NCBI GenBank assembly: GCA_030066475.1
Contig: JASJBO010000007.1
Location: forward strand, 1-31,769
Length of the DNA stretch: 31,769 nucleotides
Direction: 5' to 3'
DNA from: Myxococcota bacterium
Lineage (GTDB): Bacteria > Myxococcota_A > UBA9160 > PR03
Part shown: piece after piece, positions 1 through 31,769 of the stretch
Layout of the letters: each line of letters opens with the position of its first letter
How positions within the stretch are numbered: the first letter of the stretch is position 1
Notes under the pieces: model-generated
What the model saw: only the letters and a program-made list of their open reading frames with translations
Databases searched by the model: none
Told to the model about the DNA's origin: nothing
Made by a program: the position numbers and the translations under genes

Positions 1-2070
1 CAGCCGGGCGCGCTCGAAGAACAGGTCGCGCGGAGCGTCGGGGTCGGGCGCGGCCAGCGGATCGAGCAGCGCGTTGCGCAGCGAGGTCTCTTCGAGCTTG
101 GACACCAGCCGCGCCAGCCGCTCCTCGGACATCGACTGCCGCCGCGTGGCCGGCAATCCGTCGTCGTCGCCGTTGGGCCCCACCAGCGCGAACTCGACCC
201 GCTGGCCGCCCAGCAGGGTCACGCCCTTCGGGTGGAGCTCGCCGTTGCCGACCTCGTCGTCGAGCAGCTCGGGGCGCAGCCCCAGGCCCTCGGGGCCGGC
301 GACGTCGGGGTTCTCGAGCAGGAAGCCGCGCGAGATCCGGATCTGCTGGGTGGTGCCGTGCTCGAGCTCGCTGCGGAGCAGCATGCCCGCATGGCGTCCG
401 GCCACCGTCTCGGGGTACGAGGACGAGACCTCCTTGAACAGGGCCAGGCGCATGTCGCGGCGCTCCTGCTTGCGGGCGTAGCGCAGCGCCTGCTCCGCCG
501 CGCGCTGCTCGAGGTCGGCGACCTGCTCGGGGTCGGCGTTCGGGTCGGCCTTCGCGACGGCGTGGGCGCCGACCGGGTTGCCCCGGGCCTCGTTCAGGTC
601 GATCAGGAACTCGCGCATCTCGGCGGCGTGCAGCCCGTCGGGGTAGAGCGACAGGTAGCGCTTGGCGTGCCGCGCCGGCTCCCGGCCGTCCGGCGCCGAG
701 GTTGCGGTCTTGAACAGCCGCTGCGGCATGCCGGCCAGCGCGCTCGCCAGGGCAGGGGCCTCCAGCAGCCACTCGAGCGCGGTCGGCAGGTTGCGGTCGC
801 GCGGGCCCTTGGCCAGCGGGCCGAAGACGACGAACTTGAGCTTGTCCATGCGCTCGTCCCGGCGCGCCAGCTCGAAGGCCCGATGGGGATGGTGCTGCTC
901 GCTCTCGACCAGTCGCTCGGCGTAGCGCGCCAGCGGACCGTCGTCCTGCTCGGCGAGCTCTCCCAGCTCGTCCCACATCTCGTCCTCGGCGCCGCGCTCG
1001 CCCAGCGCAATGGCGTGGGCGAACTGGGCCTCGTCGGCGAGCGCCGGGTTGCGGCCCGACGTCAGCAGCTCCTCGCTGACGGCCTCGAGCCGGCCGTCCG
1101 GCAGCAGCAGCGCCACCGCCAGGGCGCGCGCCCCCTCGCCCAGCTCGCCGGGCGCGAGCGTCTCGGGCGCGCCCAGGCTGCGCCGGTGCTCTTCGTGGCG
1201 GTGCTGCGCCTGCTCCAGCGCCTTGGCGTACAGCTCCACCGCGTCGTCGTCCTCGGGCGCGTAGCGCAGGGCGCGGTGGGCGAGCACCAGGGCGGTGTCG
1301 GCCGTGCCCGCGCCGAGCGCCTCCTCGGCGGCGCGCAGGGTGCGCTTGCGCTTCATCTTGAACCAGCGGCGCTGGAGCGAGTCGATCCGGTCGAGCAGCC
1401 GGGGCGACTCCACCGACCCCGGATTCAGCTCGACGTACTGCTTCCAGTGGGCCAGGGCCTGGCGCTCCTGCAGGCTGATCGGCTCCTGGGCGTGCTCGGT
1501 CATGATCACGCCCACCGCCGCCTGCGCCACGCGCAGCGGAGCCATCGTCATGGTGAGGATCGAGCGCCCGAGCGCCGAGGCGAAGGCGTTGAAGATGCGC
1601 GCGAAGCGGGCGTGTCGGGCGTCGAAGATGCGGCGGCTCGCCAGCCGCAGCGGGTCGTCCTCGACCTGGATCTCGAGCGAGCGCCGCAGCGCGGGGTCGA
1701 GGTCGTCGCGATCGAGCAGCTCCTCGGCCGCGCGCCGGTAGGCGATGGCGTCGCGGCCGGTCGCCGCGGCGACGTGGATGCCGTGCGGCACCAGGCCCGA
1801 CGGCGCCTCGCCGGCGGCGCGGCGCTCGGCCTCGGCGCTCTCGAGGGCGGTCAGGGCGTCCGCCAGCTCGGCCGGCGTGCCCGCCAGCGCCGCCGTCGCG
1901 ACGTCGTGCGCGGCGCGGTCGGCGTCGTCGGGCATGAAGGTGTTGCTGCGGCCGATCGGCTCCAGCGGCGAGATCATCGGGATGCCGCCCGGCCCGCGGC
2001 AGGCGGCGAGCGCGAGACACAGCAGCAGCAGACAGGCGCCAGGAGCGCGCGCGGCAAGACCCCCTTGCAA
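1..2070 (-). CDS. Large lipoprotein of unknown function, C-terminus outside window
   Basis: The frame stays open to base 1, so the protein is cut; about 690 residues are visible. With a TTG start at 2070 the N-terminus has an Arg-containing n-region, a Leu-rich core (LLLLCLALAAC) and a lipobox L-A-A-C with Cys24, so export and lipidation are expected. The rest is mostly helical, Ala/Leu/Glu/Arg-rich and resembles degenerate TPR-like repeats; no catalytic motif is seen. I do not recognise the family. The start is uncertain: the frame is also open upstream through a block of dispersed repeats, no convincing Shine-Dalgarno precedes the TTG, and another in-frame TTG lies near 2151. It follows a second lipoprotein gene (2243-3211) on the same strand, so the two may act together at the envelope. 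The reading frame is seen directly; the envelope role is inferred. Confidence 0.7.
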   Translation of the reverse strand, partial: MQGGLAARAPGACLLLLCLALAACRGPGGIPMISPLEPIGRSNTFMPDDADRAAHDVATAALAGTPAELADALTALESAEAERRAAGEAPSGLVPHGIHVAAATGRDAIAYRRAAEELLDRDDLDPALRRSLEIQVEDDPLRLASRRIFDARHARFARIFNAFASALGRSILTMTMAPLRVAQAAVGVIMTEHAQEPISLQERQALAHWKQYVELNPGSVESPRLLDRIDSLQRRWFKMKRKRTLRAAEEALGAGTADTALVLAHRALRYAPEDDDAVELYAKALEQAQHRHEEHRRSLGAPETLAPGELGEGARALAVALLLPDGRLEAVSEELLTSGRNPALADEAQFAHAIALGERGAEDEMWDELGELAEQDDGPLARYAERLVESEQHHPHRAFELARRDERMDKLKFVVFGPLAKGPRDRNLPTALEWLLEAPALASALAGMPQRLFKTATSAPDGREPARHAKRYLSLYPDGLHAAEMREFLIDLNEARGNPVGAHAVAKADPNADPEQVADLEQRAAEQALRYARKQERRDMRLALFKEVSSSYPETVAGRHAGMLLRSELEHGTTQQIRISRGFLLENPDVAGPEGLGLRPELLDDEVGNGELHPKGVTLLGGQRVEFALVGPNGDDDGLPATRRQSMSEERLARLVSKLEETSLRNALLDPLAAPDPDAPRDLFFERARL

Positions 2071-2237
2071 GCGCCCGAAGGGCGCGCGCAGTGAGGCGAA
2101 GCCGAACGAAGTCCACCCGCTAGGAGCGAGCGCGGCAGAAGCCCCCTGCAAGCGGCCGAAGGTCGCGCGCAGTGAGGCGAAGCCGAACGAAGTCCACCAG
2201 AACGGCGCGCGCAGTGAGGCGAAGCCGAACGAAGTCA
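2067..2237 (-). repeat. Dispersed REP-like repeat, array A (3 copies)
   Basis: Three copies read on the minus strand begin near 2117, 2198 and 2237. Each has GGACTTC followed by the hairpin core GTTCGGCTTCGCCTCAC and then TGCGCGC. Copies 1 and 2 continue into a second hairpin-forming stretch (for example GCGCCCTTCGGGCGC near 2072-2086). This array carries the variant core in which both an outer and an inner base pair differ from the common form, each time on both arms, so pairing is kept. It fills the gap between two lipoprotein genes. Confidence 0.85.
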
Positions 2238-2242
2238 GACAC

Positions 2243-4752: not shown

Positions 4753-4764
4753 GGGACTGCCTCT

Positions 4765-4792
4765 GCGCCGCCTGCGGCTGCGAAAGCGGCGC
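4765..4792 (-). promoter_or_regulatory. Hairpin just upstream of the cimA ribosome binding site
   Basis: GCGCCGC (4765-4771) and GCGGCGC (4786-4792) form a 7-bp stem with a 14-base loop, immediately 5' of the AGAGG that precedes the cimA GTG. It could be part of the leader folding pathway. No direct evidence of function. Confidence 0.35.
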
Positions 4793-4799
4793 TCAATGC

Positions 4800-4833: not shown

Positions 4834-4853
4834 ACGGCGAACGCTCGTTGGCG

Positions 4854-4937: not shown

Positions 4938-4945
4938 CGCGTGCG

Positions 4946-4973: not shown

Positions 4974-4999
4974 GCGAGCCTGGCCACTACCCTGGACGC

Positions 5000-7286: not shown

Positions 7287-8105
7287 ATGCCCCGACCCGA
7301 GCCGCCGCGCACCGACCCGGTCTGGGAGGCGATCCGCACGGAGGTGCAGGAGGACGCGGCGCGCGAGCCGCTGCTGGCCAGCCTGCTCCACGCGACCGTG
7401 CTGCGCCACGCCTCGCTCGAGGACGCGCTCGCCTTCCACCTGGCCGGCAAGCTCGAGGATCCGAACCTCTCGGCGATGCTGATCCGCGAGGTGTTCGACG
7501 AGGCGATGACCGTGGACCCCTCGATCGGCGCGGCGGCGCGCCGCGACCTGCGCGCGGTGTCGGAGCGCGACCCGGCGTCGGCCGCGCGGCTCGCCACCGT
7601 GCTGCTCTACTTCAAGGGCTACCACGCCCTCCAGTCCTACCGGGTGGCGCACTGGCTGTGGACGCAGGGACGCCGGGCGCTGGCGCTCTACTTCCAGTCG
7701 CGCATCTCGCAGGCCTTCGCGGTCGACGTGCATCCCGCGGCGCGCATCGGCGCCGGCATCTTCATCGACCACGGCACCAGCGTGGTGATCGGCGAGACCG
7801 CGGTGGTCGAGGACGACGTCTCGATGCTGCACGAGGTGACGCTCGGCGGCACGGGCAAGGAGACCGGCGACCGCCACCCCAAGGTGCGGCGCGGCGTGCT
7901 GATCGGCACCGGCGCGAAGATCCTCGGCAACGTCGAGGTGGGGGAGGGCGCCAAGGTCGGCGCGGGGAGCGTGGTGCTCGAGGACGTGCCGCCCCACTGC
8001 ACGGTGGCCGGCGTGCCCGCGGAGGTGGTCGGGCGCCCGAGCGTCGAGCAGCCGGCGCTCGAGATGGACCACCGCCTGCCGCACCACGCGGGCGAGGGGA
8101 TCTAG
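7287..8105 (+). CDS. cysE: Serine O-acetyltransferase
   Basis: 272 residues from ATG at 7287 with GGAG upstream. It transfers acetyl from acetyl-CoA to L-serine, the first step of cysteine synthesis, in the cytoplasm. Seen: an N-terminal helical domain (1-140) containing KGYHALQSYRVAHWLW; a left-handed beta-helix of hexapeptide repeats (about 146-240); DHGTSVVIGET at 161-171 with active-site H162; LHEVTLGGTGK at 181-191; and GDRHPKV with H197. Length matches the family. It lies in a probable operon with the zinc-ribbon gene three bases upstream and is followed by a repeat array. Identification is secure; regulation by cysteine feedback is assumed from the family only. Confidence 0.93.
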   Translation: MPRPEPPRTDPVWEAIRTEVQEDAAREPLLASLLHATVLRHASLEDALAFHLAGKLEDPNLSAMLIREVFDEAMTVDPSIGAAARRDLRAVSERDPASAARLATVLLYFKGYHALQSYRVAHWLWTQGRRALALYFQSRISQAFAVDVHPAARIGAGIFIDHGTSVVIGETAVVEDDVSMLHEVTLGGTGKETGDRHPKVRRGVLIGTGAKILGNVEVGEGAKVGAGSVVLEDVPPHCTVAGVPAEVVGRPSVEQPALEMDHRLPHHAGEGI

Positions 8106-8108: not shown

Positions 8109-8406
8109 GCTGGTGGACTTCGCTCGCCTGCGGCTCCGGCTGGGTGGACTTCGCTCGCCTGCGGCTCGCTGCGCGCGCCGTCGGGGGAACCGGCGGCGCT
8201 TGCGGGGTGCCCGCGAAGGGCCGGGTTGCCGGCGCGGGCGCGTCTTGGTGGACTTCGCTCGCCTGCGGCTCGCTGCGCGCGCCGCCGGGGGAACCGGCGG
8301 CGCTTGCGGGGTGCCATGGAGGGCGGTGTGCCAGCGCGGGCGCGTCCTGGGGGACTTCGCTCGCCTTCGGCTCGCTGCGCGCGCCTTCGGCGCTTGCGGG
8401 GGAGCC
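8109..8406 (+). repeat. Dispersed REP-like repeat, array B (4 copies, about 103-bp tandem period)
   Basis: Four plus-strand copies, with the GACTTCGCTCGCC segment starting at 8116 (truncated), 8147, 8251 and 8353. The last three are spaced 104 and 102 bp and share the layout GGACTTC, core GCTCGCCTGCGGCTCGC (TTC loop in the last), TGCGCGCGCC, a GC hairpin, CGCTTGCGGGG and a linker ending GCGCGGGCGCGTC. The stretch between cysE and the next gene (8106-8437) holds essentially only this array. Several frames stay open through it, which I treat as an effect of composition. Confidence 0.9.
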
Positions 8407-10819: not shown

Positions 10820-10825
10820 TAAGCT

Positions 10826-11130
10826 GGTGGACTCCGCTCGCCTGCGGTCTTGGTGGACTCCGCTCGCCTTCGGCTCGCTGCGCGCTCCGGCTTCGCCTTC
10901 GCTTGCGGCTTCCCCCTGCGATCTTGGCGGAGATGGCTACGGGAGCTCCGGTCGTGAGGCCGCCTCGCCGGCCTGCCAGCTCGGCCCGAAACCGCCAAGG
11001 TCGCCCGCGCAAGCGCCGAAGGCGCGCGCAGCGAGGCGAAGCCGAGCGAAGTCCAGCAGTTGGACTCCGCTCGCCTTCGGCTCGCTGCGCGCTTCGGCTT
11101 CGCCTCCGCTTGCGGCTTCCCCCTTCGATC
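10826..11130. repeat. Dispersed REP-like repeat, array C (4 copies in both orientations)
   Basis: Copies: truncated direct at 10826-10848, direct at 10849-10910, inverted at 11011-11055, direct from 11060. The second and third face each other across a 118-bp centre (10901-11018) and form a REPIN-like inverted pair. The third and fourth touch back to back (GAAGTCCAGCAGTTGGACTCC region, 11049-11068). The inverted copy has core GCTCGGCTTCGCCTCGC, with the inner pair swapped relative to its neighbours (GCTCGCCTTCGGCTCGC). The remaining 11131-11375 shows no gene I can support. Confidence 0.88.
10901..11018 (+). repeat. 118-bp element centre, copy 1 (second copy at 19217-19334)
   Basis: This stretch matches 19217-19334 at about 108 of 118 positions by eye, with no length change. 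It is itself partly palindromic: GCGATCTTGGCGG at 10918-10930 mirrors CCGCCAAGGTCGC at 10992-11004 with one mismatch. Flanked by inverted REP-like copies, it looks like the interior of a small non-autonomous element. Confidence 0.8.
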
Positions 11131-12253: not shown

Positions 12254-13696
<1,443 letters not shown>

Positions 13697-13737
13697 CGAT
13701 GCTCAAGTGTCCCGATTCCGGGACCGATGACGGCCGC

Positions 13738-15189
13738 ATGGGCAAGGAGTGCGCAGCGTCCGCGGCGCTCGAGCACGGCGCCGGCTCCGATGCCGAGCCG
13801 GGGCTGGTCCTGGTGGTCGACGACGAGGTCCTGATGCTGCGGGCCCTCGGTCGGATCCTGCGCGCCGACGGGCACCGCGTGGTGCTGGCGGAGCGCCCCG
13901 ACGCGGCCGAGACCGCGCTGCTCGAGCCCGACCTGGAGGTCGTGCTGCTCGATCTCTTCTTCGGCGAGCAGAGCGGTCTCGAGCTGCTCGACCGCATCAA
14001 GCGTGAGCGGCCCGAGGTCGAGGTCGTGGTCATGACGGGCCACGCCAGCATCGAGAGCGCCGTCGGCTGCATGCGCCGCGGCGCCTTCGACTACCTGGCC
14101 AAGCCGTTCGAGGACGTGCACCGCGTCCGCACCACGGTGCAGAAGGCGCTCGAGCGCAACCGGCTGCTGCGGCGCAACCACGAGCTCGAGCGCGAGCTGC
14201 GCGAGCGGGGCGTGATTCCCGAGCTGATCGGCAACGCGCCCGCGACCCGGCGCCTGGTGCGCACCATCCAGAGCCTGCGCCACAACGAGAGCCACGTGCT
14301 GATCCGGGGCGAGAGCGGCTCGGGCAAGGAGCTGGTCGCGCGGGCCATCCACGCCACCGGCCAGCGCAGCGAGGGTCCCTTCGTGCCGGTCGACTGCGGC
14401 GCCCTGCCCGAGACGATCATCGAGAGCGAGCTGTTCGGCCACCAGCGCGGCGCCTTCACCGGGGCGGTCGGGGCGCCCGGCCTGTTCCGCATGGCCCAGG
14501 GCGGCACGCTCTTCCTCGACGAGGTGGGCGAGATCCCGCTGGCGGTGCAGGCGAAGCTGCTGCGCGCGCTGCAGTACAAGGAGGTGCGCCCGCTGGGCGC
14601 GGCCGGGCCGCAGCCCGTCGACCTCCGCGTCATCACGGCGACGCACCGCGATCTCGAGGCGATGGTCGAGCGGGGCCGCTTCCGGATGGACCTGTACTAC
14701 CGGCTCGACGTGGTGCGGATCGAGGTGCCCCCGCTGCGCGCGCGGCAGGAGGACATCCCGCTGCTCGTCCACCACTTCCTCGAGAAGCACCGGCGGGTGG
14801 GCTCGGACGTCGTGGGCATCGACGAGTCGGCCCTGGCGCTGCTGGTGTCGCACGACTGGCCCGGCAACGTTCGCGAGCTCGAGAACGCGATCGAGTCGGG
14901 ACTGGCGCTCGCGCGCGGCCCGCGCCTGCGCGCGGCCGACCTGCCACTGGGCCGCGGCCGGCGCCGGGGGCGGGCGGTGCCGGGCCCCGCGGCCGACGCC
15001 GCGCTCCCGCTGTCACTCGCGGCGTACGAGCGCAGCGCGCTCGAGCGCGCGCTCCGCGAGTCGGGCGGCAACGCCACCGAGGCCGCTCGCCGGCTCGGCA
15101 TCGGGCGGAGCACCTTCTACCGCAAGCTCGGCAAGCACGGTCTGCGCGAGGACGAAGGCGGGGTTGGTCCCGGACGCGCGATCGGATAG
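13738..15189 (+). CDS. NtrC-family sigma-54-dependent response regulator (second)
   Basis: 483 residues from ATG at 13738, an internal start in a longer open frame. Receiver domain (about 22-140) with D72 ([11 protein letters not shown]) and K122 (LAKPFED); AAA+ domain with Walker A GESGSGKE, a canonical GAFTGAV loop, [12 protein letters not shown] and [17 protein letters not shown]-terminal Fis-type helix-turn-helix ([20 protein letters not shown]). It is a full activator of sigma-54 RNA polymerase. The downstream histidine kinase gene on the same strand is its most likely partner. Phospho-partner and targets are inferred; one candidate target is the sigma-54-like site before fliA. Confidence 0.93.
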
Positions 15190-19042: not shown

Positions 19043-19420
19043 CGCGAACACGTCTTGGTGGACTCCGCTCGCCTTCGGCTCGCTGCGCGCTCCGGCGGGA
19101 AGACCCGCCTCCGCTTGCGGCTTCCCCCTGCGGACCAGCCGGGTGCCGGGGCGAGCGCGGCCTTGTGGACTCCGCTCGCCTTCGGCTCGCTGCGCGCTCC
19201 GCCGCTGCGCGGCTCCGCTTGCGGCTTCCCCCTGCGATCTTGGCGGAGATGGCTTCGGGAGCTGCGGGCGTGAGGCCGTCTCGCCGGCCTGCCAGCCCGG
19301 TCCGAAGCCGCGACGGCCGCCCGCGCAAGCGCCGCCCTCGAAGCCCGAGCAGCGCGCCTCTGCCCACGCGGCGCGCGCAGCGAGGCGAAGCCGAGCGAAG
19401 TCCACCAAGACGTGTTCGCG
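19043..19420. mobile_element. Dispersed REP-like repeat, array D, bounded by a 22-bp perfect inverted repeat
   Basis: Two direct copies (core near 19067 and 19171) and one inverted copy (core near 19380-19396). The outer ends are perfect inverted repeats of 22 bp: 19043-19064 (CGCGAACACGTCTTGGTGG...) and 19399-19420. Counting the adjacent core, the imperfect inverted repeat reaches about 50 bp, with the two cores differing at exactly the paired positions 6 and 12. The interior holds the second copy of the 118-bp centre (19217-19334). This fills the gap between the PilZ and methyltransferase genes (19018-19447). No transposase is inside, so it looks like a non-autonomous, MITE- or REPIN-like unit. 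Confidence 0.75.
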
Positions 19421-19447
19421 TCCCACCGAGCCCCTAACCTCCGCCGC

Positions 19448-20242
19448 ATGCGAGTCGTCGATCTCGACCGGGACATGAGCGATGTGATTCCGACGGGGAC
19501 TACGCTGGACAGCGAGTTTCTGTTCGAGCGGATGACCGAGGAGACGCTGGCGCTGGCGGGGGCGGAGCCGGGGCGGCGGGTGCTCGACGTGGCGAGCGGC
19601 TTCGGGCAGGACGCGATCGAGATGGCGCGGCGCGGGGCGCGGGTGGTGGCGGCCGAGCCGTCCGAGCGCATGACGGCCTGGGCGCGGCTCCAGAGCGAGA
19701 AGGCCACCGGGCCGTTGCCCCTCTGGGTGCGGGGCTGGTCGGACGCGCTGCCGTTCGCCGACGCGAGCTTCGACGCCGTCATCTGCAAGGGCGCCATCGA
19801 CCACTTCGACCGGCCCGAGCTGGCGATTGCCGAGATGGCGCGCGTGACGCGTCCCGAGGGCCGCGTGGTGCTGGCGATCGCGAACTTCGAGTCGTTCTCG
19901 TGCCGGGCGGCGCGCGCCGTCGACGAGGTGAACGAGCGCTGGCTGGGCGGCAGCGTGCCGCGCGGCCGCCGCCACTACGACGTCCCGGCCGACCACTTCA
20001 CCCGCTACGAGGTGGACCTGATGCGCGAGCAGGCGGCCCGCTCGCTCGACCTCGAGGTGGTGCGCGGCGTCTCGCTCGCCTGGGGCCTGCCCTGGTGGAC
20101 CCGCTCGGTCGACAAGCTGCCGCGCGGGCTGGGGATGTCGATCCTTCAGGCGCTCGACGCGCTGGCCGGCCGGCGTCCCGATCTGGCCGACGTCGTCGTG
20201 TTGGCCGGGCGACCGCGCCGCGCGGCGAGGACCGCCCGGTAG
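19448..20242 (+). CDS. Class I SAM-dependent methyltransferase
   Basis: 264 residues from ATG at 19448; the frame stays open upstream into the repeat, but this ATG starts a normal N-terminus. SAM-binding motif I is VLDVASGFGQD; motif II acidic end VVAAEPSERM; post-motifs DALPFADASFDAVICKGAIDHF and PEGRVVLAIANFESF. This is a methyltransferase-11 type fold acting in the cytoplasm on an unknown acceptor. The next genes are glycosyltransferases and a second methyltransferase, so the substrate may be a glycan or lipid-linked sugar. Its last 97 bases overlap the 3' end of the convergent glycosyltransferase gene. Confidence 0.85.
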   Translation: MRVVDLDRDMSDVIPTGTTLDSEFLFERMTEETLALAGAEPGRRVLDVASGFGQDAIEMARRGARVVAAEPSERMTAWARLQSEKATGPLPLWVRGWSDALPFADASFDAVICKGAIDHFDRPELAIAEMARVTRPEGRVVLAIANFESFSCRAARAVDEVNERWLGGSVPRGRRHYDVPADHFTRYEVDLMREQAARSLDLEVVRGVSLAWGLPWWTRSVDKLPRGLGMSILQALDALAGRRPDLADVVVLAGRPRRAARTAR

Positions 20243-21477
20243 ACGTCGGCCGTGCGCGCCGCCACGCGCGGCCAGCCGTAGGCGGCCTCGATGCGCGCCG
20301 GGGCCGCTGCACCCAGGCGCGCGCGGGAATCGGGCTGCTCGAGCAGCGTGTCGATGCCCTTGGCCAGCGCGTCCGGGTCGCCGGGCGCGACCACCACACC
20401 GCCGCCCGCGGTCTCCATCAGCTCCGGCAGCGCGCCCGCGCGCGTCGCCACGACCGGCGTGCCGCACGCCATCGCCTCCGCCGCCGGCAGCCCGAAGCCC
20501 TCGTAGAGCGACGGCACCACCACCAGCGTGGCGCGCTGGTACAGGCGCACCAGCTCGTCGACGGGCACGCGCCCCGCGATGCGCAGCCGATCGTCCACGC
20601 CCAGGCGCCGCGCGCGCTTGCGGGCGCCGTGCTCGGCGTGGTCGTCGTCGACCAGCGTGAGCCGCACGTGCGGCGGCAGCTTCGCGAGGGCGCGGACCAG
20701 CACGGCCACGCCCTTGTTGGGGTCGGCCGCGCGGCCCACACACAGCAGCTCCGCCGGGGCGCGCGGCTGACTCGGGTCGGGCCGGAACAGCCCCGTGTCG
20801 AGTCCGTTGCCCAGCATGTGCAGCCGCTCGGGCCGCACGCCGAAGTCGTCGGTGATCTGCTCGGCGCTCGCGCGCGACGAGGTGATCACCCCGTCCAGAT
20901 GGCGCGCCACGAAGCCCTGCATGCCCACCGGGTGGAACTCGACGGTGCCGATGCGGTCGCGAAGGGTGCGGTCGCGCCGGAACGAGGCGCGCCGGTCCAT
21001 CGTGAGCGGGTGGTGCACCGTGGTCACCACCGGCAGCCCCAGCGCGCGGATCCCGAGCAGGCCCCAGCCGAGGCACTGGACGTCGTGCACCACGTCGTAG
21101 CGCCGGCCGGCGCGCAGGCGGCGCGCCAGCTCGCGCAGGGCGCGCACGCTGAACACGAACGGCTCGGGGAAGAAGCCGATCCGGCTGGCGGCCAGCTCGT
21201 AGAAGCGCAGCGGCGAGAGCACCGACGCGGGCCGCTCGGCGGGCAGGAAGTGCGCCCAGTCCTTCAGGAACCACTTGGCCCAGAACTCGTCGTTCGGCAC
21301 CCGGTGCACCGCGCGCGCGAACGGCATCGGGTCGGGGTAGGGCGGCCCCACCACGACGTCGACGTCGTGGCCGAGCCGCGCCAGCTCGCGCGCCAGGAAC
21401 CACAGGTAGATGCCCTGGCCGCCGCAGTTCATGTTGCCGCGGTAGGCCACGAAGCAGATGCGGAGCGGGCGGGTCAC
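20146..21477 (-). CDS. GT4-family glycosyltransferase (first of two paralogues)
   Basis: 443 residues from GTG at 21477, overlapping the upstream methyltransferase stop as GTGA. GT-B fold: N-terminal ICFVAYRGNMNCGGQGIYLWFLARELARLGHDVDVV, then a C-terminal nucleotide-sugar domain with LLCVGRAADPNKGVAVLVRAL and the E-x7-E region SLYEGFGLPAAEAMACGTPVV. It probably transfers a sugar in making a surface polysaccharide or glycolipid; sugar and acceptor cannot be told. The natural end of the fold is near VYRAVLAARRG; the last 20 or so residues are low complexity and lie antisense to the convergent methyltransferase gene. Confidence 0.88.
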   Translation of the reverse strand: MTRPLRICFVAYRGNMNCGGQGIYLWFLARELARLGHDVDVVVGPPYPDPMPFARAVHRVPNDEFWAKWFLKDWAHFLPAERPASVLSPLRFYELAASRIGFFPEPFVFSVRALRELARRLRAGRRYDVVHDVQCLGWGLLGIRALGLPVVTTVHHPLTMDRRASFRRDRTLRDRIGTVEFHPVGMQGFVARHLDGVITSSRASAEQITDDFGVRPERLHMLGNGLDTGLFRPDPSQPRAPAELLCVGRAADPNKGVAVLVRALAKLPPHVRLTLVDDDHAEHGARKRARRLGVDDRLRIAGRVPVDELVRLYQRATLVVVPSLYEGFGLPAAEAMACGTPVVATRAGALPELMETAGGGVVVAPGDPDALAKGIDTLLEQPDSRARLGAAAPARIEAAYGWPRVAARTADVYRAVLAARRGRPANTTTSARSGRRPASASSA

Positions 21478-22199: not shown

Positions 22200-23427
22200 G
22201 CTGCACGTCCTCGAAGACCTCGACCAGGCGCGCCGCGGCCTGGTCCCAGCGGAACACGTTCTCGACCCGCGCGCGCGCGGCGCGCCCCATCTGCTCCAGC
22301 CGCACCGGGTCGGCGAGCAGGCGGGAGATGGCGTCGGCCAGGGCGCGCGGGTTGCGCGGCGGCACCAGCAGCCCGGCCTCCCCGTCGCTGCCCACCACCT
22401 CGGGCAGGGCGCCCGCCGCGTTGGCGATCACCGGCAGGCCGCACGCCATCGCCTCGCTGGCCGGGAACCCGAAGCCCTCGAAGAACGACGGCACCACCGC
22501 GATGCGGGCCGTCGAGTACTCCGCGATCAGGTCCTCGAGCTCGAACCAGCGCTTCTCGAGCACCACCCGCTTCTCGAGGCCGTGCTTCCGGATCCGCTGC
22601 GGCACCAGACCGTGGTCGGGGATGCGGCCGTCGACGATCTTGAGCGTCACGTGCTCGGGCAGCAGCTCGAGCGCGCGCAGCAGGGTGCCGATCCCCTTCT
22701 TGCGGTCCTCGGTGCGGCCGACGAACAGCAGGTCGGTCTCGACGCGCTTCTGCGGGTGGGGCCGGAACAGCGACGCGTCGGTGCCGTTGTAGACGACCGC
22801 CACCTCCTTCTCCGGAATCCCGAAGTAGCGCTCGATCTCGCGGCGCGACGCCTCGCTGACCGTCACGATCTTGTCGAGCCGCGGCGCGACCATCTGCTGC
22901 ATGAAGAGCGGGAAGTAGAGCGTGCGCTTGACCTTCTTGCGCAGGCTCGGATCGATCGCGAAGTCGGCCTCGCGGTCGATGTGGAGCGGGTGGTGGATCA
23001 CCGAGACCACCGGCACGCCGGTGGCGCGAATCCCCAGCAGGCCCCAGCTCAGGCACTGGTTGTCGAACACCACGTCGAAGCGGTAGCGGCGCTGCAGCTC
23101 GCGCCAGCGCATCAGCAGGCGCAGCCCGAAGGTCTGCATCTCGGGGAACACGCCGAAGCGCGACACCCCCAGCTCCCAGAGGTTGAGCGGCTGGAGCAGG
23201 CGCAGCGGCTTCTCGCGCTGGAACACGTCGGGCGACGGCACCCCGAACACGTTCTCGTTCGGGACCACGTGCAGCGGGATGCCCGGGTCGAGCTCGGGGA
23301 GCGGCGGGCCGGCGATCACGTGGACGTCGTGGCCCGCCCGCTTCCACTCGCGGGCGAGATACGCGGCGTAGATGCCCTGACCGCCGCAGTACATGTTGCC
23401 GCGGTAGGTGAGCAGCGCGATGCGCAC
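22168..23427 (-). CDS. GT4-family glycosyltransferase (second paralogue)
   Basis: 419 residues from GTG at 23427. It starts VRIALLTYRGNMYCGGQGIYAAYLAREWKRAGHDVHVIAGPP, closely matching the start of the other glycosyltransferase in this operon. Both also share a CLSWGLLGIRA or CLGWGLLGIRA segment and HHPL. The donor-binding half has DLLFVGRTEDRKKGIGTLLRAL and SFFEGFGFPASEAMACGLPVIA. GT-B retaining family with unknown sugar specificity. It lies 11 bases downstream of a small membrane-protein gene, whose product might anchor or assist it. Confidence 0.88.
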   Translation of the reverse strand: MRIALLTYRGNMYCGGQGIYAAYLAREWKRAGHDVHVIAGPPLPELDPGIPLHVVPNENVFGVPSPDVFQREKPLRLLQPLNLWELGVSRFGVFPEMQTFGLRLLMRWRELQRRYRFDVVFDNQCLSWGLLGIRATGVPVVSVIHHPLHIDREADFAIDPSLRKKVKRTLYFPLFMQQMVAPRLDKIVTVSEASRREIERYFGIPEKEVAVVYNGTDASLFRPHPQKRVETDLLFVGRTEDRKKGIGTLLRALELLPEHVTLKIVDGRIPDHGLVPQRIRKHGLEKRVVLEKRWFELEDLIAEYSTARIAVVPSFFEGFGFPASEAMACGLPVIANAAGALPEVVGSDGEAGLLVPPRNPRALADAISRLLADPVRLEQMGRAARARVENVFRWDQAAARLVEVFEDVQRAAHGRSRAA

Positions 23428-23438
23428 CGGCGGCCCGC

Positions 23439-23746: not shown

Positions 23747-23778
23747 CCGCGGGCGCGGCCCCTCAGCCGCGCCCGCGG
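23747..23778 (-). terminator. 12-bp GC hairpin downstream of the 6S-like RNA
   Basis: CCGCGGGCGCGG (23747-23758) and CCGCGCCCGCGG (23767-23778) form a perfect 12-bp stem with an 8-base loop, a few bases after the proposed 3' end of the RNA. There is no U-run, so it may mark the RNA end or a processing stop rather than act as a classical intrinsic terminator. Confidence 0.45.
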
Positions 23779-23782
23779 GCGA

Positions 23783-23959
23783 TCCGCCGCTTGGCCGTGG
23801 GGAAGAAGGCTCAACCTGGCATCTACCAGGTGGGCTCCGTATCGCCGGACTTCGCTTCCCGAGCCCAAGGCGTCGGGCGCTCGGTCACGCCGAGGCACGG
23901 ATCCCGTGTTGAACCTACCGGGTCGAGCGTCGACTCCCCTCACGAACCGGGCAGACGGC
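23783..23959 (-). ncRNA. ssrS: Probable 6S RNA
   Basis: About 177 bases on the minus strand with the 6S plan: closing stem, central bubble, apical stem. The 5' end (GCCGUCUGCCCGGUUCGUG, from 23959) pairs imperfectly with the 3' end (CUUCCCCACGGCCAAGCGGC, 23805-23786) over about 20 pairs. The bubble follows, with 5' strand about 23933-23906 and 3' strand about 23831-23806. The 3' strand of the bubble contains a small hairpin, CCUGG-UAGAUG-CCAGG. Then GGGAUCCGU (23905-23897) pairs with ACGGAGCCC (23840-23832) at eight of nine positions, and an apical CUCGG...CCGAG hairpin caps the rod. A consensus-like promoter places the start exactly at the closing stem. Such RNAs bind the housekeeping RNA polymerase holoenzyme as a promoter mimic. 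Structure was worked out by hand; identity is inferred from architecture, not sequence search. Confidence 0.65.
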
Positions 23960-23964
23960 GCCGA

Positions 23965-25284: not shown

Positions 25285-25929
25285 GTGGCGGTCGAGAGAG
25301 TGCGGGCAGCTGCGCGTCCGTGCGGAGCGGTCGTGAGCAGCAAGGGGTTACGCGCCGGGGTGCCGAAGGGGTGCCCGGCGCACGTGACGATTCGCGTCCG
25401 CGATGGGATCCCCTCCTTGCGGACGCGCCGCTTCGTCGCCGACTTCCGCGCCTCGCTCCGCAAGGCCTGCGAGCGCGGCGAGTTCCGCGTGGCGCACTAC
25501 TCGATCCAGCGCGATCACGTGCACCTGATCGTCGAGGCGGCCGGGAAGCAGGCGCTGGGACGGGGGATGAAGTCGATCTCGGCGCGTCTGGCGCGGGCGG
25601 TGAACCGGGTGTTCGGGCGCAGGGGGCAGGTGCTGGATGGGCGCTATCACCTGCATCTGCTGAAGACGCCGCGGGAGGTGCGGAATGCGCTGGCGTACGT
25701 GCTGCTGAACGCGCGCAAGCACTGGCGGGAGCGGCGGGGGAAGGTGCCGTCGGTGAGGCTCGACGAGGCGTCTTCGGGGCGGTGGTTCTCGGGGTGGAGG
25801 CGGAGAGTGCCGGGGCCGAGACCGCCGGGTTTGCGGGAGGTGGCCCTACCACGTAGCTGGCTGCTGCGTAGCGGCTGGCGCCGCTACGGGCTGGTGGATC
25901 CGGCGGAGGTCCCGGGCGCGAGGCCCTGA
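25285..25929 (+). CDS. Y1 (HUH, IS200-like) transposase of the REP-associated type
   Basis: 214 residues from GTG at 25285. Seen: AHVTIRVRDGIPSLRTRRF; the HUH motif HVH at 78-80 in YSIQRDHVHLIVEA; KSISARLARAVNRVFGRRGQVLDGRYH; and the helix with candidate nucleophile Tyr138 (REVRNALAYVLLNARKHW). The tail (SGRWFSGWRR... LPRSWLLRSGWRRYGL) is typical of stand-alone RAYT-like proteins. Such enzymes cut single-stranded DNA at hairpins. No IS ends flank it, but a copy of the dispersed hairpin repeat begins about 50 bases after its stop. The N-terminal 25 residues look poor and the exact start is unsure. Catalytic residues appear intact, so it may be active. Confidence 0.85.
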   Translation: MAVERVRAAARPCGAVVSSKGLRAGVPKGCPAHVTIRVRDGIPSLRTRRFVADFRASLRKACERGEFRVAHYSIQRDHVHLIVEAAGKQALGRGMKSISARLARAVNRVFGRRGQVLDGRYHLHLLKTPREVRNALAYVLLNARKHWRERRGKVPSVRLDEASSGRWFSGWRRRVPGPRPPGLREVALPRSWLLRSGWRRYGLVDPAEVPGARP

Positions 25930-25979
25930 CCACACCCAGAATCGCCCCAGGCCGCCCCCGCCCAGCAACCCGAACCTAC

Positions 25980-26037
25980 GCGGGCACCCCGCAAGCGCCG
26001 AAGGCGCGCGCAGCGAGCCGCAGGCGAGCGAAGTCCT
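25980..26037 (-). repeat. Dispersed REP-like repeat, copy E beside the Y1 transposase
   Basis: One full copy reading on the minus strand: GGACTTC, core GCTCGCCTGCGGCTCGC, TGCGCGCGCC, then hairpins GCGCCTTCGGCGC and GCGGGGTGCCCGC. It starts about 50 bases past the transposase stop and runs into the stop codon of the MBL-fold gene (26036). Its outer flank (AGCAACCCGAACCTACGCGG at 25964-25983) recurs in array F. Confidence 0.88.
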
Positions 26038-26770
26038 ACAGCTCGACGCGCAGCCCGTCGTCCGCCGTCTCCAGCTCCAGCCGGCCGCGGCGGCGCGCCA
26101 TCTCCTCGCCGAGGTGGGTCACGATCATCCGCTCGCAGTCGAACTCGGGCGCGCGCTCGCGCAGCGTGCGGTAGTTGAGGTGGTAGTCGAAGTCGAGCTC
26201 GTGGAAGGTGCACTCGCAGGCGAACAGGTCGGCGCGGCGCGCCGCCGCGGGCAGCGCGTCGAACCAGCCGGTGTCGCCGGTGTAGACCACGCGCTGCGCG
26301 CCCTCGGTGGCGATCAGGCCGTGCGGATGGGTGTCCGGGTGGTGGTGGGCGGCGAACGCCTCGATGCGGGCCGGCCCCAGGTCGGCCGGCTCGCCGGCCG
26401 CGAGCTCGACGAAGCGCAGCGGGAACGAGAGCTCGCGGTCGAGCGACTGCGCGAAGGCCTCGCCGACCGCGCGCACGCGGGCCTCCACGCCGGGCGGACC
26501 GGCGATCACCAGCGGCTGCGTGCGGTGGTCCTCGTAGTGCGAGGCCAGCACCAGGAGCGGGATGCCGGCGAAGTGGTCGCCGTGAAAGTGCGAGACGGCG
26601 ATCGCGTCGATCTCGTCGCGCGCGATGCCGAGCGAGGCGATCCCGGTGCCGGTGGTCGGCGCGCAGTCGAGCAGCAGGCCGCCGCCGTCGCAGCGCACGA
26701 AGATCGCGGCCTGGCGGCGGCCGCCCGCGCCGAATGCGTCGCTGGTGCCGACGAACACGACCTCTCTCAT
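26036..26770 (-). CDS. Metallo-beta-lactamase-fold hydrolase, RNase Z-like group
   Basis: 244 residues from ATG at 26770, overlapping the upstream stop as ATGA. Metal-binding motif HFHGDH at 61-66, later HHHPDTHPHG near 158, YTGDTGWF, and a final THLGEEM. The N-terminus VVFVGTSDAFGAGGRRQAAIFV and the spacing fit the RNase Z/PhnP-like branch, cytoplasmic and two-metal. The substrate is not evident: it might be an RNA 3' processing enzyme or a small phosphodiester/ester hydrolase. It is last in an operon with MurU-like and AmgK-like genes, so a role in cell-wall sugar metabolism is possible but unproven. The stop codon lies at the edge of a REP-like repeat. Confidence 0.85.
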   Translation of the reverse strand: MREVVFVGTSDAFGAGGRRQAAIFVRCDGGGLLLDCAPTTGTGIASLGIARDEIDAIAVSHFHGDHFAGIPLLVLASHYEDHRTQPLVIAGPPGVEARVRAVGEAFAQSLDRELSFPLRFVELAAGEPADLGPARIEAFAAHHHPDTHPHGLIATEGAQRVVYTGDTGWFDALPAAARRADLFACECTFHELDFDYHLNYRTLRERAPEFDCERMIVTHLGEEMARRRGRLELETADDGLRVEL

Positions 26771-28757: not shown

Positions 28758-28768
28758 TCGCGTCCGCC

Positions 28769-30073
28769 TCAGGCGAGCAGCCAGTGGCACGCCGCGGTGG
28801 CGGCCACCACGCCGGCCAGGTCGCCCGACAGGCAGGCGCCCAGCGCGTAGCGGCTCTCGCGCACGCGCGCGGCGCCGAGGTAGATCGTCAGCACGTAGAA
28901 GGTGGTCTCGGTCGAGCCCTGGAGGCTGCTCACCAGCATCCCCACGAACGAGTCGGGACCGTGCGTCTCCATGATCTCGACCATCAGACCGTAGGCGCCC
29001 GAGCCCGAGAGCGGGCGCAGGATCGCCATCGGCAGCGCCTCGGCGGGAATCAGGCCGCCGAGCAGAGGGTCGAGCAGGCCGACGAACAGCTCCATCGCGC
29101 CGGACGCCCGGAACATCCCGAGCGCCACGAGAATCATCACCAGGAACGGGACGATACGCACCCCGACTTCGAGTGCTTCCTTGGCTCCCTCGACGGCGGC
29201 CTCGTAGACCCGCACCCGGCCCGCGACGCCGAACAGCAGCAGCGAGACCATGAACACCGGCAGGAACCAGCTCCCCAGCAGCTCGCGGAACAGCTCGCCG
29301 GCGCCGGTGCCGGCGGGGGCGCGGGCCACGTGGAGGACCAGCGCCCCGAGCAGCGCGACCAGGAACCCGTAGACCACCAGCCGCGCGCCCGGCGACATGG
29401 GGCCCGGTGGCTCGGGCAGCACCGGCACCTCGACTGCGTCGGCCGGGCCGGGGGCGGCCTCGGCGGGCTCGGAGACCTCGTAGCGGTCGGCGCGGAAGCG
29501 CGGCAGCCGACGCAGCGCGAGCGCCATGCTCACCGCGACCACGGTCGAGAAGCTCGTGGCGATCAGCGTGGGGCCCCAGATGGCGTCGGGCGCGACCGAC
29601 TTCAACGACTCGCGCAGCGCGATCACGCCGGTGGGAATCAGCGCCACGCTCGACGCGTTGATCGCCAGGAACAGCACCATCGGGTCGCTCGCGACGCCGG
29701 GGCGCGGGTTGAGCTTCTCGAGCTCGACCATCGCCTTCAGCCCGAACGGCGTGGCGGCGTTGCCCAGGCCGAGCACGTTCGATGCGAGGTTCATCACCAT
29801 GGCGCCCATCGCCGGATGATCCGGCGGCACCTCGGGGAAGAGCCGGCGCAGCAGCGGCGACAGGGCGCGCGTCACCAGGTGCAGCAGGCCGCCGTCGCGC
29901 GCCACGCGCATCAGCCCCAGGAAGAGCGCCATCACGCCGACCAGGCGGATCACCAGGTCGACCGCTTCGCGCGCCGCCGCCAGCCCCTCCGCCTTCACGG
30001 CGTCCATGCGCCCCAGATAGGCGGCGCACAGCACGGAGCCGAGCATCAGCCCGAGCCAGATGCCGTTGAGCAA
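28769..30073 (-). CDS. Fused SpmA-SpmB (nucleoside recognition/Gate domain) membrane protein
   Basis: 434 residues from TTG at 30073 with a GGGGGG tract upstream; the start gives MLNGIWLGLMLGSVL, like typical SpmA N-termini. The first half (1-190) is SpmA-like: GRMDAVKAEGLAAAREAVDL, LFPEVPPDHPAMGAMVMNLASNVLGLGNAATPFGLKAM, INASSVALIPTGVIALR. After an acidic Pro-rich linker (about 195-230), the second half is SpmB-like: EGAKEALEVGVRIVPFLVMILVALGMFRASG, RPLSGSGAYG, SSLQGSTETTFYVLTIYLGA. Multi-span inner-membrane protein. In Bacillus, spmA and spmB are separate genes in the dacB operon and affect spore-cortex peptidoglycan. Here they are one gene, divergent from a D-Ala-D-Ala carboxypeptidase. 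Transported substrate, if any, unknown. Confidence 0.88.
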   Translation of the reverse strand: MLNGIWLGLMLGSVLCAAYLGRMDAVKAEGLAAAREAVDLVIRLVGVMALFLGLMRVARDGGLLHLVTRALSPLLRRLFPEVPPDHPAMGAMVMNLASNVLGLGNAATPFGLKAMVELEKLNPRPGVASDPMVLFLAINASSVALIPTGVIALRESLKSVAPDAIWGPTLIATSFSTVVAVSMALALRRLPRFRADRYEVSEPAEAAPGPADAVEVPVLPEPPGPMSPGARLVVYGFLVALLGALVLHVARAPAGTGAGELFRELLGSWFLPVFMVSLLLFGVAGRVRVYEAAVEGAKEALEVGVRIVPFLVMILVALGMFRASGAMELFVGLLDPLLGGLIPAEALPMAILRPLSGSGAYGLMVEIMETHGPDSFVGMLVSSLQGSTETTFYVLTIYLGAARVRESRYALGACLSGDLAGVVAATAACHWLLA

Positions 30074-30094
30074 CGGTCCCCCCCGCCGGCTCGT

Positions 30095-30123
30095 TTGCCC
30101 ACAGCGAGCCTCGGGGATACGTT
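30095..30123 (+). promoter_or_regulatory. Possible promoter of the carboxypeptidase gene
   Basis: TTGCCC (30095-30100), a 17-bp spacer and TACGTT (30118-30123) in the 81-bp gap between the divergent genes. The start would be near 30130, about 25 bases before the TTG codon at 30155. Plausible spacing, modest match. Confidence 0.35.
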
Positions 30124-30154
30124 CGACGGCGTCAAGTTCGGGGGGTTCCGAGAC

Positions 30155-31585
30155 TTGTCGAGAGGCTCCTGGAGAGGCGCCGAGCGGGCTGCGGCGGCGC
30201 TTCCGCTCCTGCTGGTCCTCGCGTGTGCGGCGCGGGCGGGGGTCGACCCCTTCGCCGCGCGCCTGGACGCGGCGCTGTCCGCGAAGACGCTGCGCGGCGC
30301 GCAGATCTCGGCCCTGGTGGTCGACCGCGCCGACGGGCGCGTGCGCTTCGAGCGCGACGCCGACCGCGCGCTGGTGCCCGCCTCGAACCAGAAGATCCTG
30401 ACCTCGCTGGCGGCGCTCGAGACCTTCGGCCCGGCGCACCGCTTCACCACCTGGATCGGGGCCGACGCCGCGCCGGACGCCGAGGGTGGCGTCGCGACCC
30501 TGTTCGTGCGCGGCGGCGGGGACCCGGCCCTCACCTCGGAGGACTGGTGGCGCCTGGCCTCCGACCTGCGCCTCGCCGGCCTGCGGCGCGTGCGCGGCGA
30601 CGTGGTGCTGGACGACTCGGCGTTCGACCGGGTGGGCTGGCACCCGGACTGGGGACCGGTGTCGTCGCGCGCCTACCACGCGCCGGTGAGTGCGCTCGCG
30701 GCCAACTACGGGGCCTTCGCGGTCGAGGTGCGCTCGGGCGGCGAGGTGGGCGGCCCCGCACCGGCACGGATCGACCCGCCGCTCGGCTGGCTGCTGCTCG
30801 ACAACCGCGCCACCACCGGCCCCCCGGGCTCACCCCGCCGTCTGAAGCTCGAGCGCGCCCCGCGCGACGGCGGCGAGGGCGTCCGCGTGCGCGGCAGCCT
30901 GCCGCGCGGCGGCGAGCCGCGCACGCTCTACGCGAGCGTCTCGGATGCCACCCGCTACGCGGGGGAGGTGCTGGTGCTGCAGCTCCGGGCCGTCGGCATC
31001 GAGGTCGGCGGTGGCGTGCGGCGCGGCGCGGTGCCTGCCGGCGCCGCCGAGCTGCTCGAGTTCCGCGGCCGACCGCTCGCAGAGGTCGTGCGCCTGTTCA
31101 TGAAGTACAGCAACAACGCGATCGCCGAGTCGCTGGTGAAGTCGATCGGGCTGGCAGTGGCTGGCCGGCCGGGCTCGTGGGAGCGCGGCATCGGGGCCAT
31201 GCGCGGGTCGCTCGAGCGGCTCGGGCTCGACGTCTCGGCGGTCCGCCTCTCCGACGGCTCGGGCCTCTCGCGCCGCAACCGGGTGCCGGCGCGGGTGCTC
31301 GTCGACGCGCTGCGCGCCGCCGACGCCTCGTTCGACTTCGGCCCCGAGCTGCTCGCCTCGCTGCCGATCGCGGGGGCCGACGGCACGCTGCGCGAGCGCA
31401 CCAGCGACGCTCGCGGCGCCGTCCGCGCGAAGACCGGCCGTCTCGACGGCGTCGCGACCCTCTCGGGCTTCGCCCGCCCGGCCGGCGGCGGCGCGATGGT
31501 GTTCTCGCTGCTGGTGAACGGACCGCGCGACGACGCCACCGTCGTCGACGCGATCGACGCCTTCGCCGCAGCCCTGGTCGACTAA
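30155..31585 (+). CDS. dacB: PBP4-type D-Ala-D-Ala carboxypeptidase/endopeptidase (peptidase S13)
   Basis: 476 residues from TTG at 30155, with GGGGG upstream; the start gives a signal peptide (MSRGSWRGAERAAAALPLLL...ARAG), so it is periplasmic. Penicillin-binding motifs: SxxK in PASNQKILTSLAALETF, SxN in MKYSNNAIAESLVKS, and KTG in RAKTGRLDGVATLSG. The PBP4-specific insert lies between the first two motifs (GGGDPALTSEDWWRLASDL... GDVVLDDSAFD... DNRATTG). It trims D-Ala from, or cleaves crosslinks in, peptidoglycan. Length matches DacB. It is divergent from the SpmA-SpmB fusion and near recycling genes. Confidence 0.92.
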   Translation: MSRGSWRGAERAAAALPLLLVLACAARAGVDPFAARLDAALSAKTLRGAQISALVVDRADGRVRFERDADRALVPASNQKILTSLAALETFGPAHRFTTWIGADAAPDAEGGVATLFVRGGGDPALTSEDWWRLASDLRLAGLRRVRGDVVLDDSAFDRVGWHPDWGPVSSRAYHAPVSALAANYGAFAVEVRSGGEVGGPAPARIDPPLGWLLLDNRATTGPPGSPRRLKLERAPRDGGEGVRVRGSLPRGGEPRTLYASVSDATRYAGEVLVLQLRAVGIEVGGGVRRGAVPAGAAELLEFRGRPLAEVVRLFMKYSNNAIAESLVKSIGLAVAGRPGSWERGIGAMRGSLERLGLDVSAVRLSDGSGLSRRNRVPARVLVDALRAADASFDFGPELLASLPIAGADGTLRERTSDARGAVRAKTGRLDGVATLSGFARPAGGGAMVFSLLVNGPRDDATVVDAIDAFAAALVD

Positions 31586-31608
31586 CGCCCTCCGCCCGCC
31601 AACTCGTC

Positions 31609-31769
31609 CCTTACGCGGGCACCCCGCAAGCGCCGCAGGCGAGCGAAGTCAACAAGGCCTCCTCCGCAGAGCAACCCGGACCTACGCGGGCACCCCGCAA
31701 GCGCCGCAGGCGCGCGCAGCGAGCCGCAGGCGAGCGAAGTCAACAAGGCCGCCTCCAGCAGAGCAACCC
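31609..31769 (-). repeat. Dispersed REP-like repeat, array F (2 copies, continues past window)
   Basis: Two minus-strand copies: 31611-31659, lacking 19 bases between two GCCGCAGGCG direct repeats, and 31682-31750, complete. Both begin from the flank ACGCGGGCACCCCGCAAGCG and end CGAAGTCAACAAGGCC. The window ends in AGCAACCC, which begins the same flank again (compare 31670-31677), so another unit probably follows. Confidence 0.87.

Follow-up and report, generated by a model that had tools for sequence, protein, structure and literature searches.

A dispersed two-hairpin repeat with REP-like features and covarying stems in a Myxococcota genome and its relatives

The first 31,769 bases of contig JASJBO010000007.1 from a Myxococcota bacterium (assembly GCA_030066475.1; 74% G+C), referred to here as the window, contain many intergenic copies of a short imperfect palindrome and raise the question of what this repeat is, whether its folded form is under selection and how it spreads. 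Repetitive extragenic palindromic (REP) sequences belong to the widespread repeats of bacteria, and mobilization by REP-associated tyrosine transposases (RAYTs) is the leading proposal for their spread. The explanation toward which we lean, with reservations, is that the repeat is a REP-like, non-autonomous element of two hairpins, recognized as folded single-stranded DNA and probably on the strand opposite to that on which it was first read. Natural variants of the unit show which parts of its hairpins are fixed and which need only to pair, and they suggest which strand folds.

The repeat was originally recognized in an earlier note by a 17-nucleotide (nt) core, GCTCGCCTGCGGCTCGC, but the conserved unit is about twice that length (~50 nt), with the core forming a hairpin (H1) that is followed by a second hairpin (H2). 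On the strand first read, here the top strand, the core is followed 3′ by T, GCGCGC, a variable stretch and GCTTGC. The foot of H2, GCGCGC/GCTTGC, is constant, and the upper stem varies among copies yet is self-complementary. Read on the bottom strand, the unit is 5′-[H2: GC-AA-GC-variable arm-loop-arm′-GC-GC-GC]-A-[H1: GC-GA-GCC-GNA-GGC-GA-GC]-GAAG-3′. An H2 stem of at least 3 bp was found in 121 of 172 distinct copies, compared with 19.7% after shuffling of the first 30 nt. Pairing within H2 was quantified in 79 copies, to the exclusion of 74 of the 172 with no clear GCTTG[CG] end within 5 to 24 nt and of 19 of the remaining 98 with arms shorter than 11 nt. In these 79 copies, 91.5% of cells in the four outer pairs were paired (mean, 49.6%, and maximum, 60.8%, in 2000 re-dealings of the 3′ arms), and all four outer pairs were formed in 63 (mean, 9.9, and maximum, 20, with re-dealt arms), with 24 distinct four-letter 5′ arms.

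Mismatches in both hairpins are conserved. In H1, T/C at positions 3-15 and C/T at positions 4-14 are kept in 155 and 158 of 166 copies, respectively, and the fully paired form GCTCGCC..GGCGAGC occurs in just six or seven copies, six of them in genome G420 (genomes and loci are designated by G and L numbers). The H2 foot contains one wobble and one mismatch and is retained by 90 of 98 copies, and the outermost letters of both hairpins are nearly invariant. The loop is TNC in 159 of 166 H1 hairpins and in 23 of 40 distinct H2 arms, i.e., GNA on the bottom strand. Two genomes elaborate on this plan. Copies in G435 (L232 to L251) carry a 5′ extension that is itself a small palindrome, the third in these copies, and shows a matched swap between TTAGGCGGCCGAGCCC and TTAGCCGGCCGAGGCC. 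Subfamilies coexist in G420 (L172 to L191), with either CATTTATCGTGA or a GCCGGGC-loop-GCCCGGC hairpin at the 5′ end and an H2 region that is short or ~45 nt long.

The arms of H1 change together. Most loci were chosen by pattern matches, of which a 30-mer pattern penalizes a double change and the other pattern is neutral; the tested pair was excluded from the match score in both covariation counts, which are uncorrected for relatedness. At pair 6-12, 171 copies comprised 130 C-G, 39 G-C and 2 others; at pair 2-16, 169 copies comprised 161 C-G, 5 T-A, 2 C-A and 1 T-G; and at pair 7-11, 168 copies comprised 162 C-G, 4 G-C and 2 others. A larger set of 237 distinct copies gave 187 C-G and 46 G-C at 6-12, with 4 non-pairing combinations against 77.0 expected under independence. 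At 2-16, the same set gave 210 C-G, 11 T-A (1.26 expected), 12 C-A, 2 T-G and 2 others. Both states of 6-12 coexist within single genomes (C-G/G-C, 22/20 in G476, 9/5 in the window and 25/5 in G420; both also in G413 and G431); in G435, C-G alone was found (27 of 27). The double changes that had been reported in the window, at 2-16 and 6-12 in array A and at 6-12 alone in the inverted copies of arrays C and D, are present in the sequence, and genome-wide substitutions at these positions are not independent, as 233 of 237 copies keep the 6-12 pair. The further claim that such changes imply selection stands in part: pairing is kept, but template switching may copy one arm to the other, and double changes alone do not prove selection.

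Two analyses of aligned copies agree with the fold. In an alignment of 35 rows, hand-picked from well-formed copies, 96.9% of cells were paired with a covariation of 0.277, compared with 81.8% and 0.076 for shuffled and at most 0.069 for slid alignments; RNAalifold, given no guidance, recovered the same two helices with 13 pairs. Fold energy was tried as proof of structure and dropped, being no better than that of shuffled sequences (z, −1.16 to 0.41 with DNA and −1.31 to 0.14 with RNA parameters; seven folds), and the case for the fold therefore rests on covariation rather than stability. The mismatches of H1 and H2, which arm-to-arm copying alone would tend to erase, speak for selection, and selection very likely acts on the fold.

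Within the window, the core with up to 3 mismatches matched 18 times, compared with a mean of 3.5 and a maximum of 10 in 100 dinucleotide shuffles; 5 of the 18 matches lie outside the six repeat-bearing stretches. The array A form, GTTCGGCTTCGCCTCAC, occurs exactly three times. A filter-free search with a covariance model returned 14 matches at 38.8 to 67.9 bits, followed by two fragments (22.7 and 21.7 bits) and then nothing above 15.6 bits; a third fragment, outside this list, was seen by repeat finding. The earlier count of at least 15 copies in six intergenic stretches is thus resolved into 13 two-hairpin copies, 1 copy with H1 only and at least 3 fragments, in arrays A (2067-2236), B (8116-8397), C (10824-11113), D (19061-19402), E (25991-26035) and F (31619-31741). 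Arrays A to E are intergenic, and F lies at the window edge with no called gene on its right. A crude gene finder placed array A inside an over-extended open frame, but in our reading of the translation a lipoprotein-like signal peptide begins past the array. The copies and associated features, with covariance model scores in bits, are as follows.

2067-2113, minus strand: array A copy, both hairpins, H1 GTTCGGCTTCGCCTCAC and H2 arm GCCCTTCGGGC (67.9)
2148-2194, minus strand: array A copy, both hairpins, imperfect H2 arm GACCTTCGGCC (64.7)
2205-2236, minus strand: array A copy, H1 intact, without its own H2, fused to the next copy (38.8)
8116-8143, plus strand: array B truncated copy, directly 3′ of the serine acetyltransferase stop (gene, 7287-8105) (21.7; repeat finding)
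8147-8203, plus strand: array B copy, both hairpins, long H2 stem (65.5)
8251-8307, plus strand: array B copy, both hairpins, long H2 stem (67.2)
8353-8397, plus strand: array B copy, both hairpins, short H2 GCCTTCGGC (64.7)
10824-10846, plus strand: array C truncated copy, directly 3′ of the PP2C phosphatase stop (gene end, 10819) (repeat finding; sequence)
10856-10906, plus strand: array C copy, both hairpins, left arm of an inverted pair (56.7)
10894-11018, no strand: spacer within the C inverted pair, 90% identical over 125 nt to 19210-19334 in D, H2 arms unlike (repeat finding)
11009-11053, minus strand: array C copy, both hairpins, right arm of the inverted pair, 6-12 swapped (63.7)
11063-11113, plus strand: array C copy, both hairpins (56.1)
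19061-19118, plus strand: array D copy, both hairpins (55.3)
19168-19222, plus strand: array D copy, both hairpins, left arm of an inverted pair (51.9)
19210-19334, no strand: D spacer, counterpart of the C spacer (repeat finding)
19325-19402, minus strand: array D copy, both hairpins, long H2 loop, right arm of the inverted pair, 6-12 swapped (59.2)
25285-25929, plus strand: Y1/RAYT-like gene beside array E, not part of the element and unlinked to the repeat (PF01797, 2.8e-7; NF047646, 45.1 bits against a cutoff of 80)
25991-26035, minus strand: array E copy, both hairpins, directly adjoining the TAG stop (26036-26038) of the gene to its right on the minus strand (63.9; sequence)
31619-31650, minus strand: array F fragment (22.7)
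31697-31741, minus strand: array F copy, both hairpins (62.2)

The inverted pairs of C and D have the 125-nt spacer in common and differ in their H2 arms, which suggests that the pair and its spacer were copied as a block. Among 22 pairs of neighboring copies within 400 nt, 16 are on the same strand, 4 are in +− and 2 in −+ orientation; the +− pairs are spaced 165 to 203 nt apart in the window and G420.

The strand that folds is probably the one opposite to that first read. The internal loop had been described as TC/TC, which is correct for the strand first read, where it is a pyrimidine-pyrimidine mismatch, but on the probable folding strand it becomes a tandem G·A mismatch, in the context 5′-C-GA-G-3′ on both sides. 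This context is that of stable tandem sheared G·A pairs. Half-way states at pair 2-16 are skewed (12 C-A versus 2 T-G; P = 0.013), such that 12 of 14 would be a G·T wobble on the bottom strand, although they cluster in related genomes and are not 14 independent events. Computed energies are also lower for the bottom strand, almost as often with RNA parameters (74 of 90 units) as with DNA parameters (79 of 90), and the parameters therefore do not separate DNA from RNA. GNA loops with G-C closing pairs are reported to form extraordinarily stable DNA mini-hairpins (PMC4686876), and the bottom-strand foot of H2, GC-AA-GC ... GC-GC-GC, presents an AA/GC mismatch of the same bases as the bulge A12A13-G26C27 of the Escherichia coli REP, which is required by the REP transposase, while the upper half of that stem is described as non-specific and structural (PMC8266576). 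We infer that the fold acts as DNA rather than RNA.

Resemblance to REPs had been noted from the mismatch in the stem, and it holds for the general features of a dispersed extragenic imperfect palindrome: many intergenic copies, a conserved mismatch and kept pairing. It does not extend to a GTAG or CGTC tag or to a linked RAYT. Like the E. coli-type REPs (GTAG; group 2/subclass 2.2 TnpAREP), the present repeat is intergenic and reaches high copy number, with copies at the ends of open reading frames (ORFs) and in gaps between convergent or same-direction genes (PMC3733652 and PMC6006769); termini that provide stop codons, a two-base AA/GC stem mismatch and a sequence-free upper stem are likewise shared (PMC3733652, PMC8266576 and PMC6006769). 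Unlike them, it has two hairpins per unit, with just 2 bp beneath the AA/GC mismatch, and a different sequence, occurs in another phylum and was found with neither a GT[AG]G tag nor a linked RAYT. Compared with CGTC-tagged repeats, which are dispersed palindromes said to have no dedicated transposase and to have stems of 8 to 9 bp (PMC3733652), it is also a dispersed palindrome, but with a CGTC-like tag only rarely. Inverted pairs and tandem arrays recall REPIN and BIME mosaics, although same-strand neighbors here outnumber inverted ones. Terminal inverted repeats (TIRs) of TIRYT transposases have been proposed to spread via Y1-type enzymes (PMC3733652), a proposal similar to ours, but no flanked Y1 gene was found here. 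The repeat works like a REP, as an imperfect palindrome that folds, is dispersed between genes and turns over between close relatives, yet by the tests of tag and RAYT it belongs to neither the GTAG nor the CGTC families. Compensatory change itself is not new, since “alternative complementary stem residues” have been described in known REP families (PMC3733652). No text match to six 15- to 20-letter pieces of the unit was found in the literature, and no such repeat was described in the titles or abstract openings searched on myxobacterial REPs (preprints and most subscription papers being outside both searches). The two-hairpin unit, a naturally free but paired upper stem and repeat-rich genomes in which no RAYT was found were not found described.

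The family is mainly that of one class, with outliers. A 30-mer with up to 3 mismatches found copies in 25 of 60 relatives of G006, the metagenome-assembled genome with locus L015, and none with a reversed control; G006 was the closest of 13 genomes compared by AnmK (7 matched; 78% identity). The covariance model matched in 48 of 89 class genomes, with at least 20 matches in 21 and the highest counts at or above ~70. A strict pattern matched 22 of 282 genomes of the phylum, three of them outside the 90 class genomes (G524, 20; G536, 8; and G706, 1). A scan of the phylum around G001 gave no matches in 395 genomes with up to 1 mismatch. Carriage by phages or plasmids was considered and rejected: a 28-nt pattern had no exact matches in IMG/VR, and the sole match in plasmids, in Rhodovulum, was weak, partial and within a gene.

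Intergenic copies far exceed expectation in the window, G476, G413 and G420 (P = 3e-6 to 4e-24), and the possibility that the motif is common inside genes as codon bias is not supported. The crude gene finder, with edge copies set aside, placed 3 of 13 copies inside genes in the window, 9 of 39 in G476, 6 of 20 in G413 and 3 of 28 in G420. Presence and absence at orthologous sites indicate mobility. Between G431 and G435, which are ~92% identical (89 to 95% in long matches), seven distinct sites could be compared: five are occupied in both, one in G435 only (L234:8600) and one in G431 only (L257:18241), and the covariance model found no copy at the two empty sites. Copy number differs at two of the shared sites. 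The strand of the element in G413 appeared to switch at two places, but a replication-strand bias was dropped as an explanation, since the sampled third-position skew tracks gene orientation rather than replication, on a scaffold pieced together across runs of N in hundreds.

The gene most obviously placed to mobilize the repeat is the Y1/RAYT-like gene at 25285-25929, ~60 nt downstream of which lies array E. Its protein has HUH (DHVH) and Tyr motifs, 6385 of 7994 scored candidates were relatives, part of the family is named REP element-mobilizing transposase RayT in source annotations, and three of its best relatives (P0003, P0005 and P0006) are annotated “Myxococcota bacterium”. That the repeats are the REPs of this transposase, in a REPtron, was the first strong lead, and it was dropped after tests of co-occurrence and flanks. 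The Tyr motif, YVLLNARKHW, is unlike the Y---NP motif of class 2 TnpAREP given by Quentin et al. (PMC6006769). The Y1 family occurs in just 24 of the 89 genomes of the class (34 matches at most), shows no visible relation to the repeat and was not found in the repeat-rich genomes G476, G420, G427, G412, G413, G452 and G410. The NF047646 protein is present in 11 of 21 repeat-rich and 26 of 68 other genomes (Fisher's exact test, P = 0.31). A pattern search around Y1 genes found copies at 0 of 43 loci (L001 to L043) and 1 of 30 (L074 to L103). With the covariance model, 74 of 103 Y1 loci outside the window (L001 to L020, 24 of L074 to L103 with six G422 loci omitted, and all of L202 to L231; the pattern covered the rest) contained one place with a clear copy (seen as both L077 and L203, in G412), >1 kb away, with all others at or below 21.1 bits. 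The flanking arrangement of REPtrons of the GTAG super-family was not seen, array E being the single near case, and since six stretches of the window carry copies, its adjacency is likely due to chance. The REPtron explanation is mostly refuted, and we regard it as very improbable. As a separate observation, members of the Y1 family with the motif YVLLN[AV]RKHW are multi-copy (34 matches in G436, 29 in G462 and 19 in G422), unlike the low-copy class 2 TnpAREP of Quentin et al., and a AACATCGCCCGATTCAAG block lies upstream of some G001 copies, with exact occurrences in L002 and L005.

Two other explanations account for the fold without a mobilizing nuclease. The repeat could be a structured RNA of 3′ untranslated regions, selected for its RNA fold in mRNA end protection, stop-codon ribosome stalling or termination, and its position relative to genes lends this some support. 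Copies in G413 and G420 favor convergent gaps (7 of 14 intergenic copies, P = 0.0008, and 9 of 25, P = 0.013, respectively), but those in G476 do not (0 of 30). The corresponding figure for the window, 7 of 10 (P = 0.07), was too high and was corrected to 4 of 10, because the gene finder had missed a Pfam-supported methyltransferase gene at 19412-20239, and array D therefore lies between two plus-strand genes. The stop codon of a long ORF lies within 60 nt upstream, on the strand first read, in 17 of 31 copies in G435, 8 of 26 in G431, 9 of 46 in G476, 15 of 34 in G420, 11 of 25 in G413 and 5 of 14 in the window; random intergenic positions gave 26% in G476, 28% in G413, 29% in G420 and 23% in the window. 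In G476, stops are commoner on the opposite side, where 23 of 46 copies have one within 75 nt (a count without a control). The distance to the stop is bunched within genomes, at 15 nt in 7 of 17 copies in G435, 3 nt in 6 of 15 in G420 and 49 to 53 nt in 8 of 11 in G413, and in some G435 copies the 5′ extension, ATCCTTAG, itself provides the stop codon. Proximity to stop codons was dropped as proof of targeting, given little or no excess over random positions, and only the bunched distances are suggestive. They would also fit an RNA acting at stop codons, as would the report that E. coli REPs no more than 15 nt from a stop codon affect translation (PMC12306157). An RNA element should nevertheless keep its orientation to transcription, and in tandem gaps it does not, the strand first read being antisense in 22 of 26 copies in G476, whereas 4 of 5 copies in G413 and 4 of 12 in G420 have it in the sense orientation. 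A transcription terminator was rejected: at least five T residues within 10 nt follow the hairpins in 1 of 98 copies (top strand, after H2) and 0 of 171 (bottom strand, after H1), and at two sites the element lies, in our reading, beyond an apparent intrinsic terminator. Overall, an RNA function is unlikely. Less likely still is a mutational artifact, in which template switching at quasi-palindromes copies arm to arm and produces matched changes without selection on the fold. This would explain the fast-changing, perfectly paired H2 arms, including those of C and D that differ within 90% identical surroundings, but it should also erase mismatches, and those of H1 and the H2 foot are kept with the frequencies given above, as are the outer letters of both hairpins.

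A REP-like element recognized as folded single-stranded DNA is thus the explanation preferred here, and several results weigh against it besides the limits already given for H2 copies, the 35 rows, fold energies, the half-way states and the strand parameters. One of five measures on the 35 rows, the number of further pair types, was 14 compared with 12.7 in shuffled alignments, and 142 of 500 shuffles reached it; the best fold of the array E copy departs from the consensus. A GT[AG]G tag directly precedes 0 of 172 units on the top strand (12 of 172 have one within 8 nt, and 10 of 14 window copies read TGGA) and is found at 0 of 98 H2 feet on the bottom strand (2 within 8 nt), and a CGTC/TGTC/CCTC-like tag is near only 7 of 172 and 4 of 98, respectively. 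NF047646 had no match in 10 of the 21 repeat-rich genomes, nor had PF01797 in G413, G452 and G410; these being draft genomes, such absences are weak evidence. The excess of stop codons is modest in G420, G413 and the window and nil on the top-strand side in G476. Finally, at the empty site in G435 (L236), 25 nt look by eye like a decayed copy in opposite orientation, and this site may reflect turnover rather than clean insertion.

As for mechanism, the folded element would most likely be recognized by an HUH-type single-strand nuclease acting in trans, which is probably not the product of the neighboring RAYT-like gene. The enzyme would read the feet of the hairpins and their mismatches and require the upper stem for structure alone, as reported for the E. 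coli REP transposase, and new copies would survive chiefly where they are harmless, between genes or at a stop codon. A more specific proposal, which is possible but rather doubtful, is that the repeats form a tagless class of two-hairpin REP-like elements, found in one Myxococcota-like class and sparsely beyond it and moved by a non-RAYT single-strand nuclease, with a recognition logic (a constant foot with its AA/GC mismatch, and an upper stem that is paired but free in sequence) convergent with that of the E. coli REP. The family includes draft genomes rich in the repeat but with no RAYT found, and identification of its enzyme would show whether dispersal of the REP type depends on RAYTs at all.

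The repeats lie among genes for LeuA-like, pseudouridine synthase, serine acetyltransferase, response regulator, PP2C, sigma factor, two NtrC-type regulator, PilZ, glycosyltransferase, methyltransferase, AnmK, Y1/RAYT-like, nucleotidyl transferase and Gate-domain proteins. An Rfam search of the window (E up to 1) gave five matches, and the repeat matched no family above its gathering score. The sole match to reach that score, away from the repeat, was a candidate 6S RNA at 23777-23960 on the minus strand (54.3 bits; gathering cutoff, 46.4), between a short open frame and AnmK. The divergent NtrC-type sigma-54 regulators at 12254-13696 (minus strand) and 13699-15189 (plus strand) have inverted similarity of 75% over 182 nt and probably derive from an old inverted duplication. 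Similarly, three matching blocks ~1.97 kb apart (71 to 72% over 137 to 144 nt) between 20384-21468 and 22361-23430 suggest an old tandem duplication, one copy of which is held by the glycosyltransferase gene.

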